Shown: piece by piece, positions 6,103 to 48,321 of the stretch
How positions within the stretch are numbered: position 1 is the stretch's first letter
How the letters are laid out: the number at the start of each line of letters is the position of its first letter
IMG/VR virus record: IMGVR_UViG_3300048838_000531
Coordinates: 1-49,174 of that record
DNA from: a virus
Length of the DNA: 49,174 nucleotides
Strand: one strand, 5' to 3'
Notes under the pieces: model-generated
What the model saw: the letters and a program-made list of their open reading frames with translations, nothing else
Database searches by the model: none
What the model was told of the DNA's origin: nothing
Translations under genes and position numbers: made by a program

Positions 6103-6819
6103 TTAATTATTAATAGCGGAGTTAACTATCATGTAAGTAAGTATGCCAAGTGCACCAACTCCAAATACACCGGCCTTAAGTTTCTGATTTTTTATACTCT
6201 TCTTATAAGTATTATTCATTGTTTCCAAACTTTTTATCTTTGTAGATAATAAATCTACTTGATCTAATAATATATATTTTTGATCTTTACATATATCAAA
6301 CTTATTTGTAGCCGTGTAATAAAGGTCTGTTAATTTTCTTGTTTGATATTCTAAGTTTGTATTTATTAATTTTGTATAATCAAAAGCCAACACATCAAAA
6401 TGTATAGACTTGACTTGATTAGGGGCAAAAGCATATCGCAATGAGTCTTGTGTAGGTATATACCTATGCATCAAATAATTATACGAAGAATCACTCGATA
6501 TGTTTGCCATTTCGTTTTCTAGATTGGCTAACTTTAATTGTAGATCACGATTTTCTAGCTTTAATTTATTTAATTGTTTATTTCTGTTATCAAGAATTGA
6601 ATCCAATTTGATATAAGATAATTCTTTTTCTAAATATAGTTTTTGTAAACTATCAATTTTTACAGATAATAAAGTATTTTGATTGTCTAAATAATCCATA
6701 ATACTATTATTATTATTTAATATCTTATTATACCCTGTAAACCTAACTACAGAAAATACAGCAAACGATAATAATAAAATCATTGCTGCATTTTTTAAAG
6801 TATTAATTGCTATTTTCAT
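6103..6819 (-). CDS. Rz-like inner-membrane spanin candidate
   Basis: A 238-aa protein with an N-terminal membrane anchor (residues about 9-27, NAAMILLLSFAVFSVVRF). A long coiled coil (about 35-110, rich in Leu/Lys/Asn heptads such as 'NKQLNKLKLENRDLQLKLAN') follows, then a second helical stretch (about 150-210), and a hydrophobic C-terminal segment (215-235, KAGVFGVGALGILTYMIVNS). The topology resembles an i-spanin or a unimolecular spanin: membrane anchor plus periplasmic coiled coil. Its place at the end of the lysis cluster (endolysin, small membrane proteins) supports this. The second hydrophobic segment is unusual for a classical Rz. Its start overlaps the gene above by 17 nt. Confidence 0.55.
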   Translation of the reverse strand: MKIAINTLKNAAMILLLSFAVFSVVRFTGYNKILNNNNSIMDYLDNQNTLLSVKIDSLQKLYLEKELSYIKLDSILDNRNKQLNKLKLENRDLQLKLANLENEMANISSDSSYNYLMHRYIPTQDSLRYAFAPNQVKSIHFDVLAFDYTKLINTNLEYQTRKLTDLYYTATNKFDICKDQKYILLDQVDLLSTKIKSLETMNNTYKKSIKNQKLKAGVFGVGALGILTYMIVNSAINN

Positions 6820-10406: not shown

Positions 10407-11129
10407 TTACCACATCTTATCATTAACAACATCATAGTGTCCAACAAGAACCCTATTATCACAAGCAAATTTATAACCAGCTTTTGCTGCATTTTCATAA
10501 AAGTAAAGATCTTGTGTATAAGCTCTAGCTCCCTGACCCGGTACAATTTCTTGAACTGTTTTAAACCATGGTTTAGGAATGTTAGGATCTTTAAATATAT
10601 CTAATTTAAATAAATTAAATCCCATACCTAATCCATTAGCTGCTTGTACTTCGTTTGGTATTGGCATTTGAGGTATAAAATTTTTAGGCATTACAGTTGG
10701 GTTACCATATATCATAGGTTGCCCACCTTCTCCCTTTGTCCAATATAAACCTTGTACAACATCATATTTATCCATTGACTCATATAGTTTTAATAAACCA
10801 TCTGCAGGAGGACAATTATCTTCTTCAATAGTTAATATATATTTCCAAGTTGATAATTCAGGATTATCTAATATACTTTGAATCATATTATTATAAGATT
10901 CGCCTACTTCCATGCCTATGCCAAACATAGGACCAATAACCTTTTGATTCATAGGCCTCATAAGACCCATCCAAGACTGTACAACTTTTGCTGGTATCAT
11001 GCCCCTAGTAGGACATATTATAATTGTAGACAAATCTTTATACGTACCTGACTTTTTAAGTCTTGCAATTGACTGATCTAAATCTTTATTGTGTTGCCCA
11101 ACTTCAGGCATTGCTATTTGTGGAATCAT
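10407..11129 (-). CDS. Glycosyltransferase-like protein (GT-A fold)
   Basis: A 240-aa protein. 'STIIICPTRGMIPAKVVQSW' (34-53) matches the N-terminal nucleotide-binding strand of GT-A enzymes. 'YILTIEEDNCPPADGLLKLY' (97-116) has an E-E-D-N in the place of the metal-binding D-x-D motif. 'GLGMGFNLFKLDIF' and 'RAYTQDLYFYENAAKAGYKF' match the acceptor-side and late acidic motifs. It may glycosylate a phage or host surface component; the neighbouring methyltransferase supports a sugar pathway. A promoter-like site lies just upstream (11152-11177), so this gene may begin its own transcript. Confidence 0.7.
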   Translation of the reverse strand: MIPQIAMPEVGQHNKDLDQSIARLKKSGTYKDLSTIIICPTRGMIPAKVVQSWMGLMRPMNQKVIGPMFGIGMEVGESYNNMIQSILDNPELSTWKYILTIEEDNCPPADGLLKLYESMDKYDVVQGLYWTKGEGGQPMIYGNPTVMPKNFIPQMPIPNEVQAANGLGMGFNLFKLDIFKDPNIPKPWFKTVQEIVPGQGARAYTQDLYFYENAAKAGYKFACDNRVLVGHYDVVNDKMW

Positions 11130-11151
11130 AAAGTTTTTATTTTATATACGA

Positions 11152-11177
11152 TATACAAAAGTATATGTTATAAAGTT
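11152..11177 (-). promoter_or_regulatory. Weak ECF-type late promoter candidate
   Basis: On the minus strand AACTTT (11177-11172) is followed after 14 nt by TGTATA (11157-11152). This is one base away in both spacing and -10 sequence from the three strong sites at 39813-40965. It lies in a 70-nt gap, about 23 nt before the start of the glycosyltransferase-like gene. CGTATA also occurs nearby (11150-11145) but 21 nt from AACTTT. It is weaker than the other three and could be chance in AT-rich sequence. Confidence 0.35.
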
Positions 11178-11199
11178 GTTTAATAATGAAACCTATATA

Positions 11200-12522
11200 T
11201 TATAATATAGCTATTTTATATAAATGTAAATTAGGAATTAAAATATCTTCCTCTTCAAAATATTCAAATGGTCCTAAATCGGGAGCAGCCCCTATATAAG
11301 GTAATCCAACATCTATACCAGCATCTATGATAGAACTTGTTGATTTTGGATGCATATAATCTATGTCTGGCAATGAACCATCTGATTTTCGCTGAAGCAA
11401 CATTTCTGTATAATCAACACTTATAAAATCATTATCTGTTATCACTGGTCCAGTTTGATCATAATAAGCATCCCAATTATTATGATCAAAAACTATAGGT
11501 GGAATCTCCATATAGCTATACTGATAACTATAATTATTATATGATATATTATTTCTGATAATTGAGGCAGCTATATCTGTGGTTCCATTATACCATGTAA
11601 ATCCATGCCATCCATTATTAACTGCTATATTATTATACAGATGACATATTTGACTTGATATATTTAAAACAAATCCACCATTTTTATTATTGGCTGCAAT
11701 ACAATTTCTAATTATCCTATGAGGAGTTGCTGTAACCTGAGAAGCAGCTCCTAATTTAAATCCAGTAGCTTGATAATCCGCTGTAACTCCATTTATAAAG
11801 CACCATGTATTATCAATAATAACTATTCCCTCATTTCTCATAAGATCAATACCGTCATCAGAGTTATCCCAACAACGACAACCATTTATCCTATTAGTAT
11901 ATGTAGTAACAGTAATATCAGCAATTTCTATACCATCCGCATTATTTCCAGGAGTAGGTACAGATAAGTGATCATAATTATTATATGAATCACAATTAAC
12001 TATATCATTATCATTACAATCATATATAAAACATATTCCAGAACCACCATTATCATGTGATACAATTTGCTCAAGTCTATTATGATGTGAGTAATCATAA
12101 AACTGAATAGCCCTTACACCAAGTTCTCCAGAAAGTTGCACTACATTTGTTACTTCCAAACCATACATTTGCCAATAACTGCATCTTCTCATTAATATTC
12201 CAAATCTAGATCCAGCTCCTCCATTATTAGCAGCTGTATTATTTATTCCATCTAGAATGGGTCTCTCTCCTGGATAGTTTCTTACTATTATAGGTTGTTC
12301 TAATGTACCACTTTTATTATTTGCCCCAGCACAAGCATACCAATCAGTACCAAAAGGATTATGAATAAATGTACCAATTGGTTGATATATACCACCTCTT
12401 ATATAAAGAGTGTCTCCAGCAACAACTTCATTAAAGCCTTTTTGCCAAGTAGCCCAAGGATTTGATATAGAGCCTACACCAGTTGTATCATTACCTGTAG
12501 TAGATATATAATAAGTTGCCAT
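11200..12522 (-). CDS. Right-handed beta-helix tailspike / polysaccharide depolymerase candidate
   Basis: A 440-aa protein. The opening 'MATYYISTTGNDTTGVGSIS', 'PWATWQKGFNEVVAGDTLYI' and 'RGGIYQ' is the classical start of pectate-lyase-type beta-helix proteins. The core repeats 'N-x-I-V/A-x-N-N' strands with many Asn and Asp turns (for example 'CNDNDIVNCDSYNNYD'). The last 60 residues ('IDAGIDVGLPYIGAAPDLGP') close the helix as in Bacteroidota relatives. These proteins bind or cleave surface polysaccharide; the catalytic residues cannot be assigned by eye. It shares start and end modules with the 1522-aa protein at 13167-17735, so the two are paralogues. Confidence 0.8.
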   Translation of the reverse strand: MATYYISTTGNDTTGVGSISNPWATWQKGFNEVVAGDTLYIRGGIYQPIGTFIHNPFGTDWYACAGANNKSGTLEQPIIVRNYPGERPILDGINNTAANNGGAGSRFGILMRRCSYWQMYGLEVTNVVQLSGELGVRAIQFYDYSHHNRLEQIVSHDNGGSGICFIYDCNDNDIVNCDSYNNYDHLSVPTPGNNADGIEIADITVTTYTNRINGCRCWDNSDDGIDLMRNEGIVIIDNTWCFINGVTADYQATGFKLGAASQVTATPHRIIRNCIAANNKNGGFVLNISSQICHLYNNIAVNNGWHGFTWYNGTTDIAASIIRNNISYNNYSYQYSYMEIPPIVFDHNNWDAYYDQTGPVITDNDFISVDYTEMLLQRKSDGSLPDIDYMHPKSTSSIIDAGIDVGLPYIGAAPDLGPFEYFEEEDILIPNLHLYKIAIL

Positions 12523-23200: not shown

Positions 23201-24059
23201 CACCTGCAGCTGTAGTAATCCATTGAGGAATACCAAGTGTTAAACCATTGCTAGCAGATGTATAAGATAATTCTGCACCTGTAGTACTAATTGTAGATAT
23301 AGATCCATGTATATGAGTAACAGGAGCGGCAGTTGTTATATAATTACCAACAGATAATGCAAGTCCATTACTTGATGAACCTATAGTAATATTAGTACCA
23401 GATGCATTACCATGTATGTGTGAAATATTTGCAGCTGTAGTTAAGTAACGAGGTGTTCTCATACTTAAACCTGCTGTATTAAGTGTAACTTTTACATCTG
23501 TACCAGATGTTGTATTTGTTGTTGCACCTATACCAGCATAATTACTATGATTATGATCAGACTCAGCTGCTGTTATTAAAAAGTCTGGTATACTTATTGA
23601 CCAACCATAAAACGTACCTGTTGCAGATGCAGTAGTATATGAACCAATTGTCCCACCTATATTACCTGTTGCAAAAGCTTCACCACCATGATTATGATTT
23701 GATAATGCAGCAGTAGTTAAGTATGCACCAGCTGGTTGTAAACCAGTAACAGATACAGTAGTACCAACTCCTGCTGTTGATAATGATATATAGTCCCCAG
23801 CAGAAATATAGTTTGCAGCCGCTGCAGGATCTGCAATTGATAAATTTAAATATTGATGAGCCCCAATAGCAGATGTACTAATTGTTAAATTAGTGCCTGC
23901 TAATATAACGGTGCCTGTACTAAAAACTCTAGTATCAGCTGTATTACCTATCGCAACACCACCGATACCACCAGAAACCCTATATTGATCTTTATAGGGT
24001 ACAATAATATTATTTACAGCACCTAAGCTCGAAGCATTACCAAGTATAATTGGAGCCAT
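20211..24059 (-). CDS. Large repetitive tail fibre with HxH repeats
   Basis: A 1282-aa protein made mostly of two interleaved repeat types. Type 1 is 'YLTTAALSNHNHG' or 'YLTTAALSNHSHG' with a His-x-His pair. Type 2 is 'SGTYSQNTGTIQFANSNGLT' plus 'FGLTNNQMTASV', or 'GVTFGVSTNTNNQSTVTASF'. No membrane segment, signal peptide or enzyme motif is seen. Both repeat types recur in the fibre at 1871-3979, so the two fibres are related and could recombine. The N-terminus (MAPIILGNASSLGAVNNIIV) differs from the Mtd-like start of the other. Probably a long trimeric fibre. Its start overlaps the gene above by 23 nt. Confidence 0.85.
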   Translation of the reverse strand: MAPIILGNASSLGAVNNIIVPYKDQYRVSGGIGGVAIGNTADTRVFSTGTVILAGTNLTISTSAIGAHQYLNLSIADPAAAANYISAGDYISLSTAGVGTTVSVTGLQPAGAYLTTAALSNHNHGGEAFATGNIGGTIGSYTTASATGTFYGWSISIPDFLITAAESDHNHSNYAGIGATTNTTSGTDVKVTLNTAGLSMRTPRYLTTAANISHIHGNASGTNITIGSSSNGLALSVGNYITTAAPVTHIHGSISTISTTGAELSYTSASNGLTLGIPQWITTAAGGNNLTLAGNTAGTLTEMNSGTVTIIGGDNITLSQNGNAFTIIGAASGTNAGIAFSMSNSNTTGTKVLVSTGTLYIEGGNNITVSQNSNTLQIIGNTLLTNVAGIGTTTNSTTGTDLKVTLGTDGLNLGVPQWITAATLSATASNSVYAGDYISLSTNGINTTVSAVGLQATSNMSLYQQTSNNSLFLGTADANNFVNTAFSTLLQHVSDNSLSLATSQSSLFQLTAHNSNSLGTTYTSHTHSNLYIALSESSLYRTSVLSNSFAVTSHTHSNLYIPLSSTSRFAGINGAMTGGTLTLNTSGASINVQERSLRFVDSHGVTFGSSTSGYTTTITASVAGGINTSLLGSIYFNDSNGITWGSSTSGNSTTITASVNATAAGGGAALMGSGTYSQNTGTIQFANSNGLTFGLTNNQMTASVANNAGNLYFLDGQGVSFGISTSGSNTTVTGSVIGGTLTGSYAGTVLSTASISGSNIVGSINTSGISLSVPNYVTQTGSVYFLNSSGNITWSSSTTGNSTYLYGSAPGGTGGAGGAALQGSGTYTQNTGTIQFANSNGVTFGLTNNQMTASIGNNVGSMYFADSNGVTFGVSTNTNNQSTVTASFVGGTAAASVYAGDNISVSTIGNSTSVSVINTTNFTYGHNSLLNTSQSSLFQLLGNSTLSLGTGYTTHTHNYQSTGAYLTTAALSNHSHGNVSLALTNVSGTTASASNGLTLSISAPNVGGAQTGISGFGVSNTTYTSGTIIVSGQNNITIGSSVNGASQYIRLSVPNFLTTAAASDHAHAQYVNTSASSLLQHTSATSAITSNAMHTSERARYFYTSNNTFANSTHSHGNISLALTNISGTTASASNGMTLSLSANTAGGGGGVAMRGSGTYIQSTGTIQFVNSNGLTFGLSNNGIMTASVANNVGNMGFGDANNVTFGIASTASNSSTVVTASIPNFIGTSISTSGHITVNANTAGMSLTAPTMGYLYFSNANGHSWSSSVSSVSTSIYIVTA

Positions 24060-24624
24060 TCGTTACTAATCTTTCTATTACAGATAATTGTTCTAATATA
24101 GCCTCGTCATTACCAACGTAAGCCGATGACTCCATTGAGTCAATCATTGCCATTGTAAAAATAGCATCTAAAATTTCTTTATTATTACATGAACTAAATA
24201 AATAATATTGAGGTATCATCCTAAGAAGTTCATATGTAGCATTAACAACACGACCATCTAATAATACATCATATTCCTTTACAGCTTCAATTGTATTAAT
24301 AGTATATGTAAAATAGTAAATGCCATCTAAAAATTCACTATCTGCGTCACCCATTGCAGTTGATCCAACTATTAAATGACTTGGGTTTAATTCAAAAATT
24401 AAATCATTTTGAACTACAAATGGACCAAACAAACTATAAAGATCAATTGTATTATATGTTGTAGTAACGTTAGAAGAATTAGTATATTCTACGTCTAATG
24501 TTAATGTAGCAATACCTGCTACTGATATATTACCGCCTATATTGTAATCAACTGTAGTATCTGTTATAGTTATTAATTTATTATCATTCCTTACAGTGAA
24601 GGATAAAGTTGGAGTTAATGCCAT
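24037..24624 (-). CDS. Virion protein, probable fibre-attachment or tail protein
   Basis: A 195-aa protein starting MALTPTLSFTVRNDNKLITI. The open frame continues upstream to 24669, but that part runs through an intrinsic terminator, so I take the ATG at 24624. The N-terminal 110 residues are beta-rich ('TLTFTITVED'-like strands). The C-terminal part is helical and contains 'CNNKEILDAIFTMAMIDSME', a segment similar to the helical ends of phage tail-attachment proteins. It is the first gene after the head/tail terminator and is followed by the long fibre. Function inferred. Confidence 0.65.
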   Translation of the reverse strand: MALTPTLSFTVRNDNKLITITDTTVDYNIGGNISVAGIATLTLDVEYTNSSNVTTTYNTIDLYSLFGPFVVQNDLIFELNPSHLIVGSTAMGDADSEFLDGIYYFTYTINTIEAVKEYDVLLDGRVVNATYELLRMIPQYYLFSSCNNKEILDAIFTMAMIDSMESSAYVGNDEAILEQLSVIERLVTNGSNYTW

Positions 24625-27910: not shown

Positions 27911-29389
27911 TTATTCAGCGTCGCAATATAATTCGCCAGACGTTGTAGGATCAGCAAGCATTACGCCGAACTCTGAAAGGAAGTGTACTGAGTACCCGTC
28001 CTTAGCGTTCGAACGAAGAGTGCTGATTGATTTAGCGTGTCCTGAACCAGGAGCCACTGAACCAGCTGTATGCCATACAACAAGCTCACGATCTTTACGG
28101 ACTATCTTACGTAAGTTAGCCTCACCATCACGCATGCTAGTATCAACGATAAGGATGCGATATGATTCAAGAGGTTTACCACTTACAGGATGAAGTTTAC
28201 GGTTATGAATAACGTCATCAAGAATAGGCAGATGCTTAAGAGTAAGTGTAATACCATTAAGGCCTTTGTATGTAACAAATTGCCCACCAAGAGTCAGTTG
28301 CTGACCTGAACCAGTAATAAAGAATGAATGATCCATCAGGGTATAACCTGAAGCTTTATCACGAAGTACACGGTCAAATTCACGAAGACCCATTTCACCT
28401 GACAGCCCAACAAAGTTGCGCTCACCAAAACCTTTAATATTATATGAAAGGTCTGATAAGAAACTATCAAGAATTTCTAATGTCAGAGTTGTATAAGCAC
28501 GCCTGTTTGCAGGAGCAATTTGCTCAAGAAAACCAGCACCAATACGAACCGGACGACCATTAGTACCTTTAAGGGCAACAGTGCCATCGGTAGCAGCGTT
28601 ATATTTCATATAGACCATAAGTCTATCGAGACGTTCATACCACTGACGCCAAGCTGTCCACTCTTGATATACAGACCAGTATTTTGTTTCTTTCTTTGTC
28701 TGAGGATCCCTCATAGAGACTATCATAACAGTAGAGAAAGCGTCGCCACTAATATCGTACGAAGCACGAGTTGTAGTAAGCTGGTTGCGAAGTTTGAACG
28801 GAGTCTGAGCATTGAAGATGTCAGCCTCGTCGCTCCATTCTTCGTAAGCAGATGCTAAGCGGCTAACCCTTGCACCAGGAAGTAAAAGTGAAGGCGGAAC
28901 GAACGATTCCTCTTTCCCATCTGTACATGTTAATGTATAGACATAATCGTTACCATCCATATAAGGCTCGCCAATTACACGTGCCTGGAATCTATTGTCA
29001 TCAAATTCTACAAGAGCACCTGGGCCAAACCATTTTTCGGCGACCCAAATCTGGAATGTAGAACCTGCAAGACCAGGATATACACCAAGGGTGGATGAAG
29101 TAATTTCAGCACCATTGTATACAGCACGTTTAATAACGATTGCCTTATCGTGCTCAATCATAACGTCCCATTCAAAGACAGAGTTCTCGATCACTGTAGT
29201 ACGGCCCATGCCGCCAGTGATATAGTCAAGAACACTACCCTGATCGAAACGGCCAAATATCGTTGAGATGATACCAGGCATTTTATGCGGAGCAGTAAGG
29301 AGTAACCTTGAAAGTTCTGCTTCATCTTTTAAATCTGAGGTCCACTTGGTTTTGTAGATCTGCAAATTGTTAAGAAGATTGTCAATCAT
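27911..29389 (-). CDS. Major capsid protein
   Basis: A 492-aa protein. The size, its position after portal and scaffold-like genes, and segments such as 'TIFGRFDQGSVLDYITGGMG', 'KWFGPGALVEFDDNRFQARV' and 'FVTYKGLNGITLTLKHLPIL' match crAss-like major capsid proteins of the HK97 fold. The coding sequence is more GC-rich than most neighbours and uses many C-ending codons, in line with high expression. A hairpin follows the gene. Recognition is by family features from memory, not by alignment. Confidence 0.8.
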   Translation of the reverse strand: MIDNLLNNLQIYKTKWTSDLKDEAELSRLLLTAPHKMPGIISTIFGRFDQGSVLDYITGGMGRTTVIENSVFEWDVMIEHDKAIVIKRAVYNGAEITSSTLGVYPGLAGSTFQIWVAEKWFGPGALVEFDDNRFQARVIGEPYMDGNDYVYTLTCTDGKEESFVPPSLLLPGARVSRLASAYEEWSDEADIFNAQTPFKLRNQLTTTRASYDISGDAFSTVMIVSMRDPQTKKETKYWSVYQEWTAWRQWYERLDRLMVYMKYNAATDGTVALKGTNGRPVRIGAGFLEQIAPANRRAYTTLTLEILDSFLSDLSYNIKGFGERNFVGLSGEMGLREFDRVLRDKASGYTLMDHSFFITGSGQQLTLGGQFVTYKGLNGITLTLKHLPILDDVIHNRKLHPVSGKPLESYRILIVDTSMRDGEANLRKIVRKDRELVVWHTAGSVAPGSGHAKSISTLRSNAKDGYSVHFLSEFGVMLADPTTSGELYCDAE

Positions 29390-30525: not shown

Positions 30526-32907
30526 TTATTTTTTACTAGTTGTTGGTTTTTTGCGAGCTTGGATGCGCCTAATGGCTAACTCCTTTTCCTTTTGCTCTTC
30601 CGCTTTTTTATTTTTACGTTCTGCTTCTTTTTGAGCACGCTCTTTGAGTGCGGCATCTCTACGAGCTTTTTCTTCTTCTAATCTAAGTTTTTGCTTATCT
30701 AGACTATCTTGAAAAGAATTATCTTCTGGCATTGGTTCCTGTTGATTTTCCATATTCATCATAGCAACCTGTAAGGCTGTCTCAGCTTTCCTAATGCTAT
30801 CCTCTTCTTTAATTCTTAATTCTTCAGACCTAAGATTATAATCATCTTCAGCCTTCTGTTGTTCCATCATCATTTCTTGTTCAGCTATAGCAGCTTCTTG
30901 TTCTTGTTGCTGCTGAACCATTTGCATTCTGCGTTCTTCAATCTCTTGTAATTTATTCTTAATCATAGTCATATTATCTGCAGTAAGTATTTCTGCAGCA
31001 TCAAGAATACTAGCACCATTCTGCATAGCAGGTTGTAATAAAGTTTTTAGAGCTTCAATATTCATAGAATCCTTTGTAGAATCGCTTACAAATACATCAA
31101 TGTCAGCATATATAAAATCATCGCTGATGTCTAAGAATGTCCTAGCACCATCTGACAAAACAAATTGTAACTTCTTTTTATCACTATTACTAAACTGATG
31201 CTGAGCAACATTTATAAGCATATTATAAACTCTACGCTTAACTTGATTATGTAACCAGAATAAAGGTTCTGTAATATGAGATGACTGTTGCACAGATCTT
31301 TCAACATTACCTACTAGTTCCCTAGTATTTATAGATCCCTCACGTTGTTTAGTAATACCAACTATCTCACCGATCATTATTTCGATCTTCTCTAATAGTT
31401 GAATATACTTATCAACAGATTGTATTGTAGAAAGATTTTGAGCTGATATCTGGTTGAATGGTGCCATTTTACCACCTTCCCTACCAGGAACATCCCATCC
31501 TTCTTCATATGGATTTATGAAGTTAATGCCTAATGCATTTAGGTAATGTAACCATTTATCTATGTCAATGCCATATTTCTTTGGTATTTGGGTTATATCC
31601 ATATTAAGAATAGCACCCTTATCTTTAGCAATTGCTAATTCTATCCTATACCAAATAACCATATACATATACTGTAAAGGCTTCATAAGTTCTATCAATG
31701 ATTTACCATATGCATTTGTAGCATTATATACTACACCAGTATAAGGTAACCTATTATCATTAATAGTTTCCATTGATCTATGTTGATAAGGAATAGGCCT
31801 GGCTTTATATTTATCTTCGCCTATTTTATAACCTTCCCATATTTCATCAACCCATTCCCATTCGATTATATCGTCTGGCATTGGAACATATGTTTCGTCT
31901 ACTACAACTGTTTCTACACTGCCATCCTCTTGAGGTACACTTAAGAAGCCAATCCTAGTATAAGAACGCCATGTTACGTGATGACAATATAATTCGTCTG
32001 AAGGAGCAGGTTTATTACCACCGCCCATAAATCTATTAGCTAAGTTCTCAGACCACCTAATACCACCATCACCAACACTACCCATCCTACTTGATGAACT
32101 TGTACCACCACCTTGACTAATTTCAGCTAGTATATCATCTAAGTCGCTTTCATCTAACAGGTCTCTTAACCTATCGTATAGAGCATAAGGCGACATATAA
32201 AACGAGCGACGAAACCAACTCTTCTGATCTATAAAATCTGTAGTAGAATCTATGTCAAAATCGCAGTCTCGAGGATCAACCCTTTCAACAACAGGTTCAC
32301 CATTTATGGTACCTGTATAATAAATTTCCATACGAGCTGCCTGAGCATCAAACCAGCCTTTAAGAAATTCACTCTTTATATTTAAGCGTTCTTTTAAGTA
32401 TTTTAATAAATTGTAGGCAACTTCTTCTGCCATAGTTTTGTAACTATACCTCATGTATTTTTGTACATCTTGCATAGTTACAGGAAATTCTTCACCTCTC
32501 AATGTTGCATTCAATACCTGCATCAGTCGAGATTTATACTCTTCTTGTACAGTAGATACAACGTCATAATTAGTTTGTATAACATGAAAATCGTCGGGAC
32601 GTTTAGATTCTTCACCAACCAATAAATCAACCTTAGGACGTATTATATTATAGTTTTGGATATTTGCAGGAAATGTGTCACCAACATCATATGGATCAGT
32701 AACATATTTAAAGTCATTCCTGTCAAACTCTGAATCATATAGGCCATAAGCAAGGTTCATGCGCTCATACCTATTACGAATATTATCTTCGCCACCAACA
32801 CCAACTCTGCCTATATAATAATCTATAGTATCTTGTTGCCAAGACTTGTTTTTTTGACTAAATGGTATCTTTTGGTTTGGTAACCCTTTTGCATTATTTT
32901 GCGACAT
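30526..32907 (-). CDS. Portal protein
   Basis: A 793-aa protein. The opening 'KSWQQDTIDYYIGRVGV' and 'NRYERMNLAYGLYDSEFDRN', then 'NYNIIRPKVDLLVGEESKRP', match the N-terminal wing of crAss-like portals. 'RPIPYQHRSMETINDNRLPY' and 'GIVGITKQREGSINTRELVG'-like sequence mark the conserved core and the stem helix near the channel. The last 130 residues are a long Gln/Glu/Lys coiled coil (QQQQEQEAAIAEQEMMMEQQ), giving the crown or barrel. It overlaps the terminase gene by 14 nt and precedes the scaffold-like gene, which is the normal packaging-module order. Confidence 0.85.
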   Translation of the reverse strand: MSQNNAKGLPNQKIPFSQKNKSWQQDTIDYYIGRVGVGGEDNIRNRYERMNLAYGLYDSEFDRNDFKYVTDPYDVGDTFPANIQNYNIIRPKVDLLVGEESKRPDDFHVIQTNYDVVSTVQEEYKSRLMQVLNATLRGEEFPVTMQDVQKYMRYSYKTMAEEVAYNLLKYLKERLNIKSEFLKGWFDAQAARMEIYYTGTINGEPVVERVDPRDCDFDIDSTTDFIDQKSWFRRSFYMSPYALYDRLRDLLDESDLDDILAEISQGGGTSSSSRMGSVGDGGIRWSENLANRFMGGGNKPAPSDELYCHHVTWRSYTRIGFLSVPQEDGSVETVVVDETYVPMPDDIIEWEWVDEIWEGYKIGEDKYKARPIPYQHRSMETINDNRLPYTGVVYNATNAYGKSLIELMKPLQYMYMVIWYRIELAIAKDKGAILNMDITQIPKKYGIDIDKWLHYLNALGINFINPYEEGWDVPGREGGKMAPFNQISAQNLSTIQSVDKYIQLLEKIEIMIGEIVGITKQREGSINTRELVGNVERSVQQSSHITEPLFWLHNQVKRRVYNMLINVAQHQFSNSDKKKLQFVLSDGARTFLDISDDFIYADIDVFVSDSTKDSMNIEALKTLLQPAMQNGASILDAAEILTADNMTMIKNKLQEIEERRMQMVQQQQEQEAAIAEQEMMMEQQKAEDDYNLRSEELRIKEEDSIRKAETALQVAMMNMENQQEPMPEDNSFQDSLDKQKLRLEEEKARRDAALKERAQKEAERKNKKAEEQKEKELAIRRIQARKKPTTSKK

Positions 32908-34909
32908 AATAATTAGGAATTTTATTTAAAAACAATGGTTTTTTGAAAAGATATAAATCAATCTTTTCTTCGTCTGTAATCTTTTTTATTTTAACATGTT
33001 GTAACTCTACATTATATATAAGAGCCAAACCAAATGAAATAACTCGGTCATAGTTACCACGTAATGGATCATATGCTATAAGTTCTTCCAATAAAGCTTC
33101 TGAATATATTTTTGTAAGATTCTTACGACCAGGTTCATATTCTTCTAATAACCAATCTCTAATGAGTGTCTCCATCCATTGTTTAATTGGCTTATTCATA
33201 TGAGTACCTTTTCCCCTAGCAACAGTAAGATCTTTTATAATATCTTTTAATTTTGAAGGTTGATCTGCTAATAGGTAATCACAATGCTTATTTACAAAAT
33301 AAGTAAATAAACCTTTCTTCTCATTTTCATATAATAGAGTTGCCCCATAATACATTAATAACATCCTTACTGTTTCATAGAAAGTATCAGCTTTATCAGG
33401 TCTACCTGTATATTCTGCTACAGGTACATCATACCATGATTCAAAGGCCTGAACTCGTTTATATATAAATATAGAACCTAATGAATCTGTAACAGCAGTA
33501 TCGTGATCATATGGGTCACAACCACCTATATATAAACCCCATGGAGGATTTTCAGTAGGATGTTCCCATATAACAACAGCTCCTTCTTTACTTTCACCAG
33601 CTTGTATCTTATACCTAGTAAGGTCTTTAAGCTTTGGATTTTGTTCAAACTTTACTTTACCATCTGGTGCAAAATATAAAGTGCCAACTTGTTTTAGCCC
33701 CTTTATTGATTCAGAATTCCTGATAGTTGCCAAGTGCCTAATAAGATCCTTCTTAGGAAACATATTAGTACTGACATTAAGTGTAGCCTCACCAGGTGTT
33801 AAAGGTTGTTCGCAAATATGCCTATCAATAGCATTACGATCTGAAGCATTGGTTATTACCTTTTCACGTTCTGTTAATATAAATTGAGTAGCTTGGTCAA
33901 AGTCAGTATTACCATCTTCGTCCATAAACTTTTCTATATTTGCAGACTGTGGTATAAAGAAACCACATGATGTATCATGTTCTCCTTCGTCCCATATATT
34001 TCTTAATGGTAAACAGTTATAAGCATCTGGTTCATAAAATAAGTCTTTAAGACCAGTATAGTCTGCTTCTTCTGTACCACCAGTCCCATAAGCTATCATA
34101 AGACCAAATGCCTCACCATCATGTTCTACCGAAGGCCTAGCCACCTGCCATGCAGTTTTAAGATTTGGAAACTTACCAGCCTCTTCAAATAGTATTAATT
34201 TACCACGTTTACCTCTGGCTTTCTGAGGATCATTCTTTAGGGAAATACCTATTATCTCAGACTTATAACCTTGTTCAATTGGCACACCATTAACATTCTC
34301 TATGAAAGAAGCACGCCTATGTATAGAACTATTTTTAACTTGCCTATGTTTATACCACCCTGTATTATTGTCTATGAAGTCCATCATATCCCAGGCCTTA
34401 GATAGTACACCATCTTTAGTTAAGAATTCTGTTTCAGCTGCTATTGCATATGATACAGATTCCCTAAACATATAGTAATTCCTAACTAACATAGATGCCC
34501 CTTTAAAAGAATATCCTTTACCCCTAGCTTTAATAACTGCAAGATGTCTACCATTTGTTTCTGCTAATTCAACAGCTTCATAATAAGCTCTATCATAGTC
34601 CCAAAAATAAGGAAACGATTCTACACGTTCCCTTTTCTTTTTTGTACGACCATCACCTAAATCTATAGTAAATTCTTTAACAACAATAATCCTACTATAA
34701 TTCAAATAAAAATAATAATAACCAGGAATCCAGTCACCGTCATCAGCTACAAAACCATATTGACAACGTTCTAGTTCACTAGTCCAATACCTTATATATT
34801 CACTTGTACCAGGAGGTGCAAATGTATACACCCCATGTTTTTCAAAGAATATAGCAGGTTGTCTAAACTTATCTGAATTAATAGTTTTCTTTAATGGTAA
34901 TTCAAACAT
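32894..34909 (-). CDS. terL: Terminase large subunit
   Basis: A 671-aa DNA-packaging motor. A Walker A-like loop is 'VIKARGKGYSFKGASM' (125-140). Walker B with its catalytic Glu is 'KLILFEEAG' (237-245). The ATPase coupling region follows ('MIAYGTGGTEE', 271-281). The RNase H-like nuclease starts at 'GGCDPYDHD' (462-470), with later acidic residues in 'LYENEKKGLFTYF' and near the C-terminus ('LLADQPSKLKDI'). The size and motif wording fit crAss-like terminases. It translocates DNA into the prohead through the portal and cuts concatemers. Confidence 0.9.
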   Translation of the reverse strand: MFELPLKKTINSDKFRQPAIFFEKHGVYTFAPPGTSEYIRYWTSELERCQYGFVADDGDWIPGYYYFYLNYSRIIVVKEFTIDLGDGRTKKKRERVESFPYFWDYDRAYYEAVELAETNGRHLAVIKARGKGYSFKGASMLVRNYYMFRESVSYAIAAETEFLTKDGVLSKAWDMMDFIDNNTGWYKHRQVKNSSIHRRASFIENVNGVPIEQGYKSEIIGISLKNDPQKARGKRGKLILFEEAGKFPNLKTAWQVARPSVEHDGEAFGLMIAYGTGGTEEADYTGLKDLFYEPDAYNCLPLRNIWDEGEHDTSCGFFIPQSANIEKFMDEDGNTDFDQATQFILTEREKVITNASDRNAIDRHICEQPLTPGEATLNVSTNMFPKKDLIRHLATIRNSESIKGLKQVGTLYFAPDGKVKFEQNPKLKDLTRYKIQAGESKEGAVVIWEHPTENPPWGLYIGGCDPYDHDTAVTDSLGSIFIYKRVQAFESWYDVPVAEYTGRPDKADTFYETVRMLLMYYGATLLYENEKKGLFTYFVNKHCDYLLADQPSKLKDIIKDLTVARGKGTHMNKPIKQWMETLIRDWLLEEYEPGRKNLTKIYSEALLEELIAYDPLRGNYDRVISFGLALIYNVELQHVKIKKITDEEKIDLYLFKKPLFLNKIPNYYVAK

Positions 34910-39304: not shown

Positions 39305-39539
39305 CGCCAAATTCAAAGTTTAATTCGTTTTCACTATTTGGTGAGTATGACCTACAACCTGTAATGGGACTAAATACCCCTAGGTCCTCACAGTTCTCAA
39401 TTACTTGGTTACGTAGTTCACAATTGTGCCTATAAACACAATACCCATGCTTACATAAAGATATTGCATCATTAATGTCCTTACTGACATTTGCATCGTC
39501 TAGCATGGCCATGCCACGCCTGTATATAATATTAGCCAT
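39297..39539 (-). CDS. Small cysteine-containing hypothetical protein
   Basis: An 80-aa protein with four cysteines: 'SLCKHGYCVYRHNC' (27-40), 'ENCEDLGVF' and 'TGCRSYSP'. The pattern C-x4-C-x5-C-x9-C-x12-C could hold a metal. I do not recognise the family. It overlaps the genes on both sides by 8 nt, so it is tightly coupled. Confidence 0.6.
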   Translation of the reverse strand: MANIIYRRGMAMLDDANVSKDINDAISLCKHGYCVYRHNCELRNQVIENCEDLGVFSPITGCRSYSPNSENELNFEFGDE

Positions 39540-39789
39540 TAATATAAGATTTAACTATTATAGGATCTGTAATTTTATGAGCTGACTTGAGACCAAAGAA
39601 GCGCTTAACCTTAAGCCACAGTAAATACCTATGCCATTGCCTAACTAAACGCCTGGTAATAAACTTGTTCATCTCTGAACTATAAGCCATTACCATAAGG
39701 TCATTTGAAGCATGCATATGCTGTTCAAGCACCTTAATTGCTTTTGAGTGTTTATTTATTGCTTTATATAAATCTAATTGTTTTGCCAT
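39532..39789 (-). CDS. First gene of the long late operon, hypothetical
   Basis: An 85-aa basic helical protein (MAKQLDLYKAINKHSKAIKV; 'FITRRLVRQWHRYLLWLKVK'). It is the first gene after promoter 39813-39837, with a predicted leader of about 17 nt, and so opens the operon that continues through the head and tail genes. There are no known motifs. Its basic character would suit nucleic-acid or membrane contact. Confidence 0.7.
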   Translation of the reverse strand: MAKQLDLYKAINKHSKAIKVLEQHMHASNDLMVMAYSSEMNKFITRRLVRQWHRYLLWLKVKRFFGLKSAHKITDPIIVKSYING

Positions 39790-39812: not shown

Positions 39813-39837
39813 TATACGTTAATATGGGCATAAAGTT
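39813..39837 (-). promoter_or_regulatory. ECF-type promoter P1 for the long late operon
   Basis: On the minus strand GTAACTTT (AACTTT at 39837-39832) is followed after 13 nt by CGTATA (39818-39813), extended as CGTATAATA. The AAC and CGT cores with 16 nt between them are the ECF sigma signature. It lies directly after a terminator and about 24 nt before the first gene. Same layout at 40282-40306 and 40941-40965. Confidence 0.8.
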
Positions 39838-39851
39838 ACACAAAAGGATAT

Positions 39852-39878
39852 AAAAAAAGCACTATTTTTTATAGTGCT
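39852..39878 (-). terminator. Intrinsic terminator of the noncoding-RNA unit
   Basis: On the minus strand AGCACTAT (39878-39871) pairs with ATAGTGCT (39865-39858) over a 5-nt loop, followed by seven T (39858-39852). It closes the gene-free region to its right and sits only 15 nt before promoter P1, so the two transcripts are cleanly separated. Confidence 0.85.
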
Positions 39879-40275
39879 GATTGGGTGTACCCCATGCTTT
39901 AGAATAAACTTATGTACTGTAGATAACTTATGAACTTCTTATAACTTACTATTTATTATTTGATTAATGAATACAACTTACCCTTTAATAGTGGGGAAAC
40001 CACTATTTGTCATTTTAACCGATTAAATGTTTTAGGCAGTGCTAACAAATGCTCTTTAAAAGATGTCTTTGTTTACCCCGGTCTTTATTTGATGACCACA
40101 CCTAAACTTTTCACTTAAAGGATCTTTCTGGACTTATGGAGGACCTTCATACTATTTATAGTAGGTTGCATACTATTTATATTATCTCCCCCCATTTCTC
40201 CCCGGTCTTATACGCAAGTTAACGTAGTATCGGAGGTGCTTGCTCTTCAGCGTGAGTCCTTGCTGGTTGATCTGC
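39852..40275 (-). ncRNA. Candidate structured noncoding RNA of about 420 nt
   Basis: This stretch has its own promoter (40282-40306) and its own terminator (39852-39878) but no gene of normal size. Visible structure: an 8-bp hairpin AATAGTGG / CCACTATT (39987-40007), a TACG/CGTA hairpin near the 5' end, and a GCT-GAAG-AGC hairpin. Two direct repeats are present: AAGACCGGGG (minus strand, at 40209-40200 and 40085-40076) and a 13-mer, CATACTATTTATA on the plus strand (40148-40160 and 40169-40181). Short frames of 31, 26, 11 and 8 codons exist (the longest 40277-40182, starting almost at the predicted transcript start), so a string of mini-peptides cannot be excluded. No known RNA family is recognised. 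Confidence 0.6.
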
Positions 40276-40281
40276 ATATAT

Positions 40282-40306
40282 TATACGATTATGGATGAAA
40301 AAAGTT
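40282..40306 (-). promoter_or_regulatory. ECF-type promoter P2 for the noncoding-RNA unit
   Basis: On the minus strand GTAACTTT (AACTTT at 40306-40301), 13 nt, then CGTATA (40287-40282) extended as CGTATAATA. It is identical to P1 in both boxes and in spacing, while the spacer differs. It lies just past the terminator of the GroES-like operon. The predicted transcript start is about 40275. Confidence 0.8.
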
Positions 40307-40310
40307 ACAT

Positions 40311-40346
40311 AAAAATTAAGGGGACCATAAAATTTTTTGATCCCCC
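40311..40346 (-). terminator. Intrinsic terminator of the GroES-like operon
   Basis: On the minus strand GGGGATCA (40345-40338) pairs with TGGTCCCC (40327-40320) with a G-U pair, followed by TTAATTTTT (40319-40311). It sits 7 nt past the stop of the GroES-like gene and a few bases before promoter P2. Confidence 0.75.
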
Positions 40347-40352
40347 TAATAG

Positions 40353-40706
40353 CTATTCTGCGTTTATGATACCTACAATATCCATCAACCATACCCAGTA
40401 AAGGTCCTTATATAAGTCAAATTTCTTAGCAGCCCTAAAGTCTACTAGTACTTTATCACCCACTTTATAACCAGACTTATCGTCTATTGGGAGTGATGCA
40501 ATTTCCATGATCTGGTAACCATACTTTACATCAACTGTCTTTATAATGGTCTCCATCTGATCATTCATAGGATCCTTACCTTCATTTTTTGCGTCGTCCA
40601 ATACTCGCTGTGACTGTTTATATGTTGCAAACTTATTACACTTGAGTATGACTCTATTTGAGCTAGGGGTAAAATTAGCCTCCCTAAATTTATAATTGTC
40701 TTTCAT
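40353..40706 (-). CDS. GroES-like co-chaperonin candidate
   Basis: A 117-aa protein whose order of motifs follows GroES: an N-terminal 'NRVILKC' strand (17-23), a long polar loop (26-55, in place of the mobile loop), 'GYQIMEIASLP' (63-73) for 'GKVVAVGKG', then 'YKVGDKVLVDFRAAKKFDLY' (80-99) and a final 'LMDIVGIINAE' for 'DILAVIE'. Phages such as T4 carry a GroES replacement (gp31) for folding the capsid protein with host GroEL. The ECF promoter upstream gives it its own transcript. Divergent, so fold-level assignment only. Confidence 0.65.
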   Translation of the reverse strand: MKDNYKFREANFTPSSNRVILKCNKFATYKQSQRVLDDAKNEGKDPMNDQMETIIKTVDVKYGYQIMEIASLPIDDKSGYKVGDKVLVDFRAAKKFDLYKDLYWVWLMDIVGIINAE

Positions 40707-40724
40707 AACTTGTTATGTTGCATC

Positions 40725-40919
40725 TTAATTTTCTGTACATAAATTATTTAAAATTTCTCTTTCTTCTTGTCTGAGTGTTTCAACTCGATCCTGAAACCTA
40801 CTTCTAACATAAGGTCTTAGTAAGTAACCATTATCATCATCCTTCTTTAACTCTCTTTCCAGATCTTCAATTTCTCTGTGTATCCTGGCAATAGTTTCCA
40901 TTTTATCGTCGTCCCTCAT
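40725..40919 (-). CDS. Small charged coiled-coil protein
   Basis: A 64-aa protein starting MRDDDKMETIARIHREIEDL. The frame is open further up to 40961, but the promoter -10 box lies at 40941-40946, so the ATG at 40919, about 15 nt past the predicted transcript start, is the only sensible start. The protein is almost all charged helix ('REIEDLERELKKDDDNGYLL', 'FQDRVETLRQEEREILNNLC'). First gene of the two-gene GroES-like operon. Function unknown. Confidence 0.65.
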   Translation of the reverse strand: MRDDDKMETIARIHREIEDLERELKKDDDNGYLLRPYVRSRFQDRVETLRQEEREILNNLCTEN

Positions 40920-40940
40920 TATAAAAAAGTGTTTTACCTT

Positions 40941-40965
40941 TATACGTATATAATATAACAAAGTT
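40941..40965 (-). promoter_or_regulatory. ECF-type promoter P3 for the GroES-like operon
   Basis: On the minus strand GCAACTTT (AACTTT at 40965-40960), 13 nt, CGTATA (40946-40941) extended as CGTATAAAG. It differs from P1 and P2 only outside the core. It is the rightmost minus-strand promoter, at the border between the two arms. Confidence 0.8.
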
Positions 40966-47141: not shown

Positions 47142-47463
47142 GGGGGTGACCTGGTTTTGACAGCATAGTGAATATATTTACTGCAATGGCTATTGCTCAT
47201 CTAGCATAAAGTGAGTAAAACAAATAAGCGACAATACAATAGTTGTTCGCATGAATCAGGAGCTCAGACTGAGCGCTTAATTCATCTGGGTGCTACATCC
47301 ATGGAACATAAGTAGCAAATAGATTTAGTTGTTAGATTAAACAACTTGGTGGAGCTGGTATCATACCAGTACGTCCCAGTTGTCTGTTCACAACAGAATA
47401 TCATTGTAGTATGTAAATGTTAGTAGCCTTGTCTGGACGGGGGTTCGACTCCCCTCACCTCCA
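47142..47463 (+). ncRNA. ssrA: tmRNA (transfer-messenger RNA)
   Basis: The 5' end GGGGGTGACCTGGTTTTGAC (47142-47161) and the 3' end match tmRNA. Acceptor GGGGGTG pairs with CACCTCC (47456-47462), with the G3-U70 pair that specifies alanine. The T arm is GGGGG / TTCGACT / CCCCT (47439-47455) and the discriminator is A47463. Long helix H2 is ATTTAC+TGCAATG with CATTGTA+GTAAAT. Further hairpins (for example TGCTAC/GTAGCA, AGTTGTT/AACAACT, CTGTT/AACAG) stand in the PK2-PK4 region. CCA is not encoded. The tag is unusual: after TAGTT (47240-47244) a frame from 47245 reads VRMNQELRLSA and stops at 47278-47280. It has no ALAA end. Confidence 0.9.
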
Positions 47464-47483
47464 CAAAAATAAATGTAACCAAT

Positions 47484-47733: not shown

Positions 47734-48321
47734 ATGGGTAAATTAAAGGATACTAAAACCGACATGGATCTAATTACTGATACGCTAAATGGTAATCATA
47801 AATCATTTACTATATTAGTAAATAGATACTATGCTTCTCTATATTGGGTTATATATAGGATAGTAGGCAATCCCACAGATGCTGATGATTTAACATCTGA
47901 ATCATTAATTAAAGCATATGAGAGTTTAAGTTCATATTCTAATAAATATGCTTTTAGTACATGGTTACATACCATAGGTTCTAATAGAGCTATTGATTTT
48001 GTTAGGAATAGAAACAAACAACCTAATCCTATTAATAATCCAACATCTACAGAAGAAGATATCATGACTCCAAGTATAGAATCAGATTTATCTGCTGAAG
48101 ATAATATGATTAGACTTGAAACAAATGAAATCATTGCTAATGTAGTTGATGAACTCAAACCTTTTCATAGACTATTAATTGATATGAGGTATTTTAAGAA
48201 TATGTCATATGAAGAAATATCTAAGAAATTGAATAAACCGATAGGCACTATTAAAACAGGTCTATTTAGGGCTCGCAAAATTCTTTATAACTTAATAAAA
48301 GATAACAAAAACCTAAAATGA
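47734..48321 (+). CDS. ECF-type RNA polymerase sigma factor
   Basis: A 195-aa protein with only regions 2 and 4, as in ECF sigmas. Region 2 (24-96) contains 'YYASLYWVIYRIVGN', 'DADDLTSESLIKAYESL' and 'FSTWLHTIGSNRAIDFVRNR', which covers core binding and -10 recognition. Region 4 (137-190) contains 'LKPFHRLLIDMRYFKNMSYE', 'EISKKLNKPIGTIKTGLFRA' and 'RK', with the HTH at about 158-183 reading the -35 box. The linker (97-136) is acidic. No anti-sigma gene is seen beside it. Three ECF-type promoters (39813-40965) face the late arm, so it is the likely late-gene switch. Confidence 0.9.
   Translation: MGKLKDTKTDMDLITDTLNGNHKSFTILVNRYYASLYWVIYRIVGNPTDADDLTSESLIKAYESLSSYSNKYAFSTWLHTIGSNRAIDFVRNRNKQPNPINNPTSTEEDIMTPSIESDLSAEDNMIRLETNEIIANVVDELKPFHRLLIDMRYFKNMSYEEISKKLNKPIGTIKTGLFRARKILYNLIKDNKNLK

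Follow-up and report, generated by a model that had tools for sequence, protein, structure and literature searches.

ECF sigma factors recognise an AAC core at -35 and a CGT core at -10 that lie about 16 nt apart; the promoter of Bacillus subtilis SigW reads TGAAAC-N16-CGTA. Among phages, the late sigma factor gp47 of Salmonella phage 7-11 uses bipartite promoters, GTAAtg-(16)-aCTA, with a 16-nt gap (PMC8948821), and in Flavobacterium psychrophilum, mapping of transcription starts yielded a motif with a CGT box, SM6, upstream of T9SS genes, Band-7 genes and an ECF/anti-sigma pair (PMC9723704). Few phages of the human gut are as abundant as the crAss-like phages, and the switching-on of their later genes is not described in the literature examined. 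Here we analyse a 49,174-base IMG/VR virus contig (the window, meaning the whole stretch of DNA under study), in which an ECF sigma factor is accompanied by promoter-like sites; the conservation of both across a phage family suggests how late genes are turned on.

Its sequence identifies the window as part of a crAss-like phage genome (Crassvirales), close to Suoliviridae: its terminase, portal and major capsid protein match crAss-type PHROGs (PHROG search), and its TerL is ~49-55% identical to those of Suoliviridae records such as cr118_1. Minus-strand DNA between 40.9 and 0.9 kb forms the structural arm, which also holds tail genes (PHROGs), and the early arm runs on the plus strand from 41.2 kb, with a tmRNA gene and the ECF sigma gene both near its end. 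The tmRNA (47142-47464, plus strand) lies directly before the sigma operon and carries the tag DNTIVVRMNQELRLSA; a tmRNA in the same position in the relative G001 (L017:5042-5368) carries DDTTIVRMYSELRLSA, and the LRLSA end of the tag differs from the usual LAA-type degron.

The preliminary description of this DNA had reported three minus-strand copies of AACTTT-N13-CGTATA with different spacers, and all three were recovered as exact matches (P1 to P3; Table 1), against a chance expectation of 0.02 (maximum 1; 100 dinucleotide shuffles). One-mismatch copies are absent from the window, the match list jumping from zero to two or three mismatches. Three-mismatch matches are no commoner than chance (103 vs 95), and a wider degenerate motif family in the window was therefore rejected. 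As a control for post-hoc motif choice, every 6-gap-6 pattern (gap 8-20) common to at least three upstream segments was counted; two were observed against a mean of 0.017 in 60 shuffles, and the finding stays significant. E. coli-type promoters were not above shuffles in the window, and a search for host primary-sigma promoters (TTG-N19..23-TAnnTTTG) gave no convincing plus-strand site before the early arm. At the position of the weaker candidate P4, G001 keeps the -10 box (CGTATATAAAAT) with a weaker -35 box (TGTAAT). Separately, AACATA-N13-CGTATAAT occurs on the minus strand at 6480-6504, within a coding region, and is kept in G001 (as AACATT) and G003, which may reflect coding conservation or an internal promoter.

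Table 1. Features of the window referred to in the text, with their coordinates.
Feature	Position	Strand	Basis or remark
P1, ECF-type promoter (predicted), AACTTT-N13-CGTATA	40941..40965	-	sequence; syntenic in relatives
P2, ECF-type promoter (predicted) ahead of the ~415-nt noncoding unit	40282..40306	-	sequence; syntenic in relatives
P3, ECF-type promoter (predicted)	39813..39837	-	sequence; syntenic in relatives
P4, weaker candidate, AACATA-N13-CGTATA	11145..11169	-	within the late arm, 18 nt ahead of ORF 10407-11129
64-aa ORF, first gene behind P1	40725..40919	-	conserved 45-94% in G001-G003 and G011
GroES-like gene	40353..40706	-	homologue of the cr118_1 gene annotated 'putative chaperonin'
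Terminator-like hairpin following the GroES-like gene, immediately ahead of P2	about 40312..40346	-	read by eye
Putative noncoding RNA, ~415 nt, from P2 to terminator	39858..40275	-	no conserved ORF
Intrinsic terminator closing the noncoding unit, immediately ahead of P3	39858..39878	-	terminator scan
Late/structural arm served by P3	949..39789	-	PHROGs, ORFs
Terminase	32894-34909	-	late arm, PHROGs
Portal	30526-32907	-	late arm, PHROGs
Major capsid	27911-29389	-	late arm, PHROGs
SigW-like ECF sigma factor (195 aa), encoded on the opposite, early arm	47734..48321	+	Pfam, NCBIfam, PDB

Along the minus strand the order is P1, the 64-aa ORF, the GroES-like gene, the hairpin, P2, ~415 nt, the terminator, P3 and the first structural gene, which makes three distinct units, each with a predicted promoter of its own. 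Two sites had been placed about 24 nt before a gene start; the measured distances from the -10 box are 23 nt for P3, to the ATG (39789) of the structural arm's first gene (39532-39789), and 21 nt for P1, to the ATG (40919) of the 64-aa ORF. P2 has no ORF of its own and a ~415-nt noncoding stretch downstream. P1 is overlapped by a TTG-start ORF (40961), but the start conserved in relatives is the ATG farther downstream. Of the two sites described as directly following an intrinsic terminator, P3 (39837) does so by the terminator scan and P2 (40306) by eye only, the loop of its hairpin (GGGGGATC...GGTCCCC, then TTAATTTTT and a T-rich tail) exceeding the range of the scan. The GroES-like gene has no Pfam or PHROG match of its own and was recognised with a profile of 10 gut/Oafivirinae homologues (E 2.2e-7). 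The putative noncoding RNA is partly conserved in G011, G001 and G003, where it likewise separates the GroES-like gene from the structural arm; it belongs to no Rfam family, and its fold is no more stable than those of shuffles (z -1.1). In G002, an HNH-like ORF lies inside the counterpart of this unit.

The ECF sigma gene that had been reported at 47734-48321 is borne out by its domains: the protein contains Sigma70_r2 (28-95) and Sigma70_r4_2 (133-183) and neither r3 nor r1.2 (Pfam), that is, regions 2 and 4 only, as in ECF (group IV) factors. Its best curated model is NCBIfam SigW (E 4.7e-34) and its best solved structure in the PDB is SigW 5wuq (E 5e-23), but its scores fall short of the SigW equivalog cut-offs (NF007223/TIGR02948; 117.9 vs 209 bits and 109.2 vs 243.1 bits), and by this measure it is a relative of the SigW equivalogs, not a member. 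Autoregulation and an adjacent anti-sigma gene are common but not obligatory for ECF factors, and neither was found here: AACTTT-N13-CGTATA is absent upstream of the window's own sigma gene (47734), and no anti-sigma gene was recognised beside it. The AAC -35 and CGT -10 cores, about 16 nt apart, are connected with this protein by the association of motif and sigma in other genomes. The sigma factors of G001, G002 and G003 are each 66-68% identical to that of the window and annotated Suoliviridae ECF sigma factors 25-37%; a scan with patterns from the window protein returned one relative only.

P1 to P3 are kept in place, with changed spacers, in all four close relatives (G001, G002, G003 and G011, the last an 8-kb fragment that ends short of the sigma locus, so that the sigma comparison covers G001-G003). 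The counterparts of P1 lie at 104393 in G001 (AACTAT), 34808 in G002, 68557 in G003 (AACATT) and 7798 in G011, and those of P2 at 103745, 35443, 69214 (AACCTT) and 7154, respectively; P3 likewise has counterparts in all four, and the variants given in brackets are single changes in the -35 box. Alignment of the sites shows two constant boxes and an equally constant G in TGt, and a spacer that is free in sequence and fixed in length. When AAC-N(x)-CGTA was counted upstream of ORFs with x from 10 to 22, only x = 16 was enriched (three in the window and in G001, five in G002, two in G003; neighbouring spacers 0-1), and at the same spacing G014 and G017, two IMG/VR contigs described below, gave counts of 10 and 30, with neighbouring spacers near 0. 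It is very improbable that the sites arose by chance, or that they are conserved repeats or binding sites that do not act as promoters: besides their excess over shuffles, they are polar, always facing the next gene and usually standing 10-30 nt before it, and their spacers vary in content at fixed length. On the sequence evidence, P1 to P3 are very likely promoters of the ECF type.

The same association extends through the family. An ECF sigma factor is encoded in 11 of the 11 Suoliviridae records searched and is absent from crAss001 and phi14:2 (Steigviridae), the two sigma-less Crassvirales compared. Nearly all Suoliviridae genomes tested have an AAC-N16(-18)-CGT promoter, diverged by clade, at the start of the GroES-like/late module. 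In seven gut Suoliviridae genomes outside Oafivirinae (W01-W07, pooled), the 60 nt ahead of ORFs hold 25 copies of AAC-N16-CGT, vs 0-7 copies for each other spacer from 10 to 22, and sigma-less crAss001 and phi14:2 have no N16 copy ahead of an ORF. The GroES-like gene is directly preceded by an N16 site in cr118_1, cr50_1, cr10_1, cr6_1 and cr60_1, and by an N17 site in cr1_1. Enrichment at exactly 16 nt is absent in Oafivirinae and G004; in four of four Oafivirinae-type genomes, the GroES operon and the operon facing away from it are separated by a gap that is filled by a divergent, back-to-back TGCAAC-N16..18-CGTTA pair (W08 70452/70504, W10 68332/68384, W11 10667/10719, G004 94110/94164). 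The scan of relatives proposed in the preliminary description has thus yielded a strong, spacer-specific enrichment in sigma-carrying relatives and none in the two sigma-less Crassvirales, the opposite of the missing intergenic enrichment that would have spoken against its proposal.

The GroES-side site is found across clades with differing sequence (TGtAACTTT/CGTATA in the window clade, TAGAAC/CGTTAT in Boorivirinae, TGCAAC/CGTTA in Oafivirinae), so its position is conserved and its sequence has drifted by clade. The recognition helices of the sigma factors differ by the same clades as the promoter flanks (-10, -35); of the arguments available for the phage sigma as the probable reader, this co-divergence of promoter and sigma is the strongest. 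Free-standing homing endonucleases with their own ECF-type promoter copies were also observed. Judged by eye, these ORFs are LAGLIDADG-like in G002 (28978, 5786), GIY-YIG-like in G031 (11340), cr50_1 and cr1_1, and HNH-like in cr50_1 and cr1_1.

A gene-blind scan of all IMG/VR for TGTAACTTT-N13-CGTATAAT returned 64 stretches. The copies in these contigs are mostly intergenic, 7-40 nt before an ORF and oriented toward the next gene; the shorter motif clusters in G014 (ten copies), G015 (six), G013 (five), G017 and G018 (three each), and a reversed control has no match in these contigs. G013, G014 and G017 encode an ECF sigma factor, the only one of the window's proteins with a match there. The sigma ORF of G013 (23561-24196) starts 19 nt after the motif and that of G014 (10768-11427) 23 nt after it, an arrangement that reads as the usual ECF autoregulation. 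In G017 (L110-L115, IMGVR 3300048838_001248), a phage of 102 kb that encodes its ECF sigma at 52470-53024, ~30 copies of the close variant TGTAACATTT-N-CGTATAAT precede ORFs. Beside its ten ECF-type sites, G014 (L104-L107, IMGVR 3300047678_000276) has a second bipartite motif, TTAAGTT...TTCTAT (~48 upstream-segment counts), possibly a second class of phage promoter or operator.

The same motif is also at home in bacteria. In 84,980 prokaryote genomes, the strict motif is found, among the matches listed, almost only in Bacteroidota, mainly Flavobacterium; among the host matches listed (L127-L206) it stands ~25 nt before SPFH/Band-7, NfeD-like, rpoD and mreB genes, with names assigned from the protein sequences; in Chitinophagaceae/Saprospiraceae the gene that follows it encodes an ECF sigma. 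A set of 26 Flavobacterium genomes holds eight sites (0-2 per genome) vs 0 control matches. The consensus before Band-7 genes agrees, by motif and not by shared sigma, with the SM6 ECF promoters mapped in F. psychrophilum ahead of such genes and of an ECF/anti-sigma pair (PMC9723704). In at least one Bacteroidota group, therefore, the window-type sequence has the look of a functioning ECF promoter class, which strengthens the case for P1 to P3 as promoters and weakens the case for reading by the phage sigma alone. Among the matches listed, the strict motif also precedes rpoD in several Flavobacteriaceae and mreB/queA in Bacteroidales MAGs; control of rpoD, which encodes the primary sigma, by an ECF factor would itself be of interest.

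Host ECF sigma factors in Flavobacteria share the consensus, so a host sigma may also read the sites. Taken further, a host SigW-like ECF sigma would be the reader, the phage would draw on a host stress regulon to express its late genes, and its own sigma would do something else or top up the host factor. Besides the host matches, several observations speak against the phage sigma as reader: the nearest host ECF sigma factors (35-43% identical to the window sigma) are at least as close to it as those of gut crAss-like phages, in a tree of phage and host factors that does not resolve the order of the window, gut, Oafivirinae and host core clades; the window's own sigma gene has no preceding motif; and an ECF sigma was not found in six motif-bearing contigs, mostly fragments (G015, G016, G018, G019, G020 and G031). 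Of these, G031 lacks the GroES-like gene and starts just upstream of terminase, so the region beyond is probably missing, and it was counted neither for nor against the association. Reading by a host sigma is nevertheless unlikely, given that motif and sigma go together in Crassvirales (two sigma-less genomes compared), that phage sigma genes lie behind the motif in G013 and G014, that the strict window motif is near background in 60 Bacteroidales genomes (6 vs 4 control matches), and that the CGTT variant of the gut phages is not a host motif (1 match vs 12 control matches in 60 Bacteroidales). The genes of the nearest host ECF sigma factors are not themselves behind the motif, and these factors cannot be named as readers of P1-P3.

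We therefore favour, with a probability of roughly 80%, the phage's own ECF sigma as the main reader of P1-P3 during infection. The sigma would be made from the early arm, bind the host core RNA polymerase and direct it to TGtAAC(TTT)-N16-CGTATA promoters (N16 counted from AAC), which would start the GroES-like operon, the ~415-nt noncoding RNA and the ~39-kb structural operon. The late timing of P1-P3 is suggested by position only, and transcription initiation at these sites, with the phage rather than a host sigma as reader, is what we infer from the sequences. The earlier proposal that the phage switches host polymerase to its structural, GroES-like and noncoding-RNA units through its own ECF sigma is backed in large part by genome comparison, in that the sites head those units in relatives and co-occur with the sigma; the choice of phage over host reader is the conditional part.

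The sites could also be promoters for a virion-packaged RNA polymerase of crAss type rather than for a sigma-bearing polymerase. Such an enzyme transcribes the early genes of crAss-like phages (PMC7886860), and G003 has a 4501-aa ORF with a DVDGD motif. However, the sites head the late arm and not the early arm, show canonical ECF geometry and recur in bacterial genomes, and crAss001 and phi14:2 have that polymerase without the motif, all of which makes this reading highly doubtful. With the phage sigma as reader, a three-step programme can be sketched tentatively for Suoliviridae: a virion polymerase would serve the early genes, an ECF sigma taken from the host SigW-like family would follow, and the late genes would be transcribed by host polymerase. 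In this speculative scheme the window-clade sigma would still share its promoter language with the host membrane-stress regulon, so infection would also turn on host flotillin-type genes (in Flavobacteria, rpoD too), and homing endonucleases and the noncoding RNA would be wired into the switch.

A family-wide phage sigma with identified promoters makes the switching-on of later genes in crAss-like phages directly testable. As markers, the ECF-type promoters can point out late operons across many uncultured genomes, and phage sigma and promoter are a candidate orthogonal pair for Bacteroidota. Additionally, the likeness to a host stress promoter class suggests the origin of the phage sigma and predicts side effects on host transcription.

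Compared with the described systems, the window sigma has B. subtilis SigW as its best curated model and best solved structure and shares its promoter geometry; it differs in scoring below the equivalog cut-off, in having no recognised anti-sigma beside it and in being phage-borne. The SM6/SigW-like promoters of Bacteroidota have the same CGT -10 box before Band-7/SPFH genes and the ECF/anti-sigma pair (PMC9723704), but that host regulon answers stress or starvation and has 0-2 strict sites per genome, vs 3-10 per phage contig. Suoliviridae genes annotated 'RNA polymerase sigma-W factor' match the window gene in kind and in phage family, and are known by annotation only. A literature search found no paper describing promoters of Suoliviridae sigma genes; sigma factors and promoters are unmentioned in a crAss-like genome survey (PMC7886860), the crAss001 description and the structural atlas, and the virion-polymerase paper may touch on them. 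The preliminary claim that this design is undescribed in the phage group accordingly narrows: a phage-encoded late sigma is a known principle, and it appears new for crAss-like phages. In 7-11 (gp47) and in E. coli phage phiEco32 (gp36), a phage sigma redirects host RNA polymerase to middle or late genes, as proposed here, and the window likewise has a phage sigma and a motif before late genes. Those two belong to an unrelated phage group with other hosts, the promoters of phiEco32 are single-element, and an inhibitor of the host primary sigma (phi32_gp79-like) is a phiEco32-type feature absent in 7-11; a virion RNA polymerase for early genes sets the crAss-like phages apart from both (PMC7886860).
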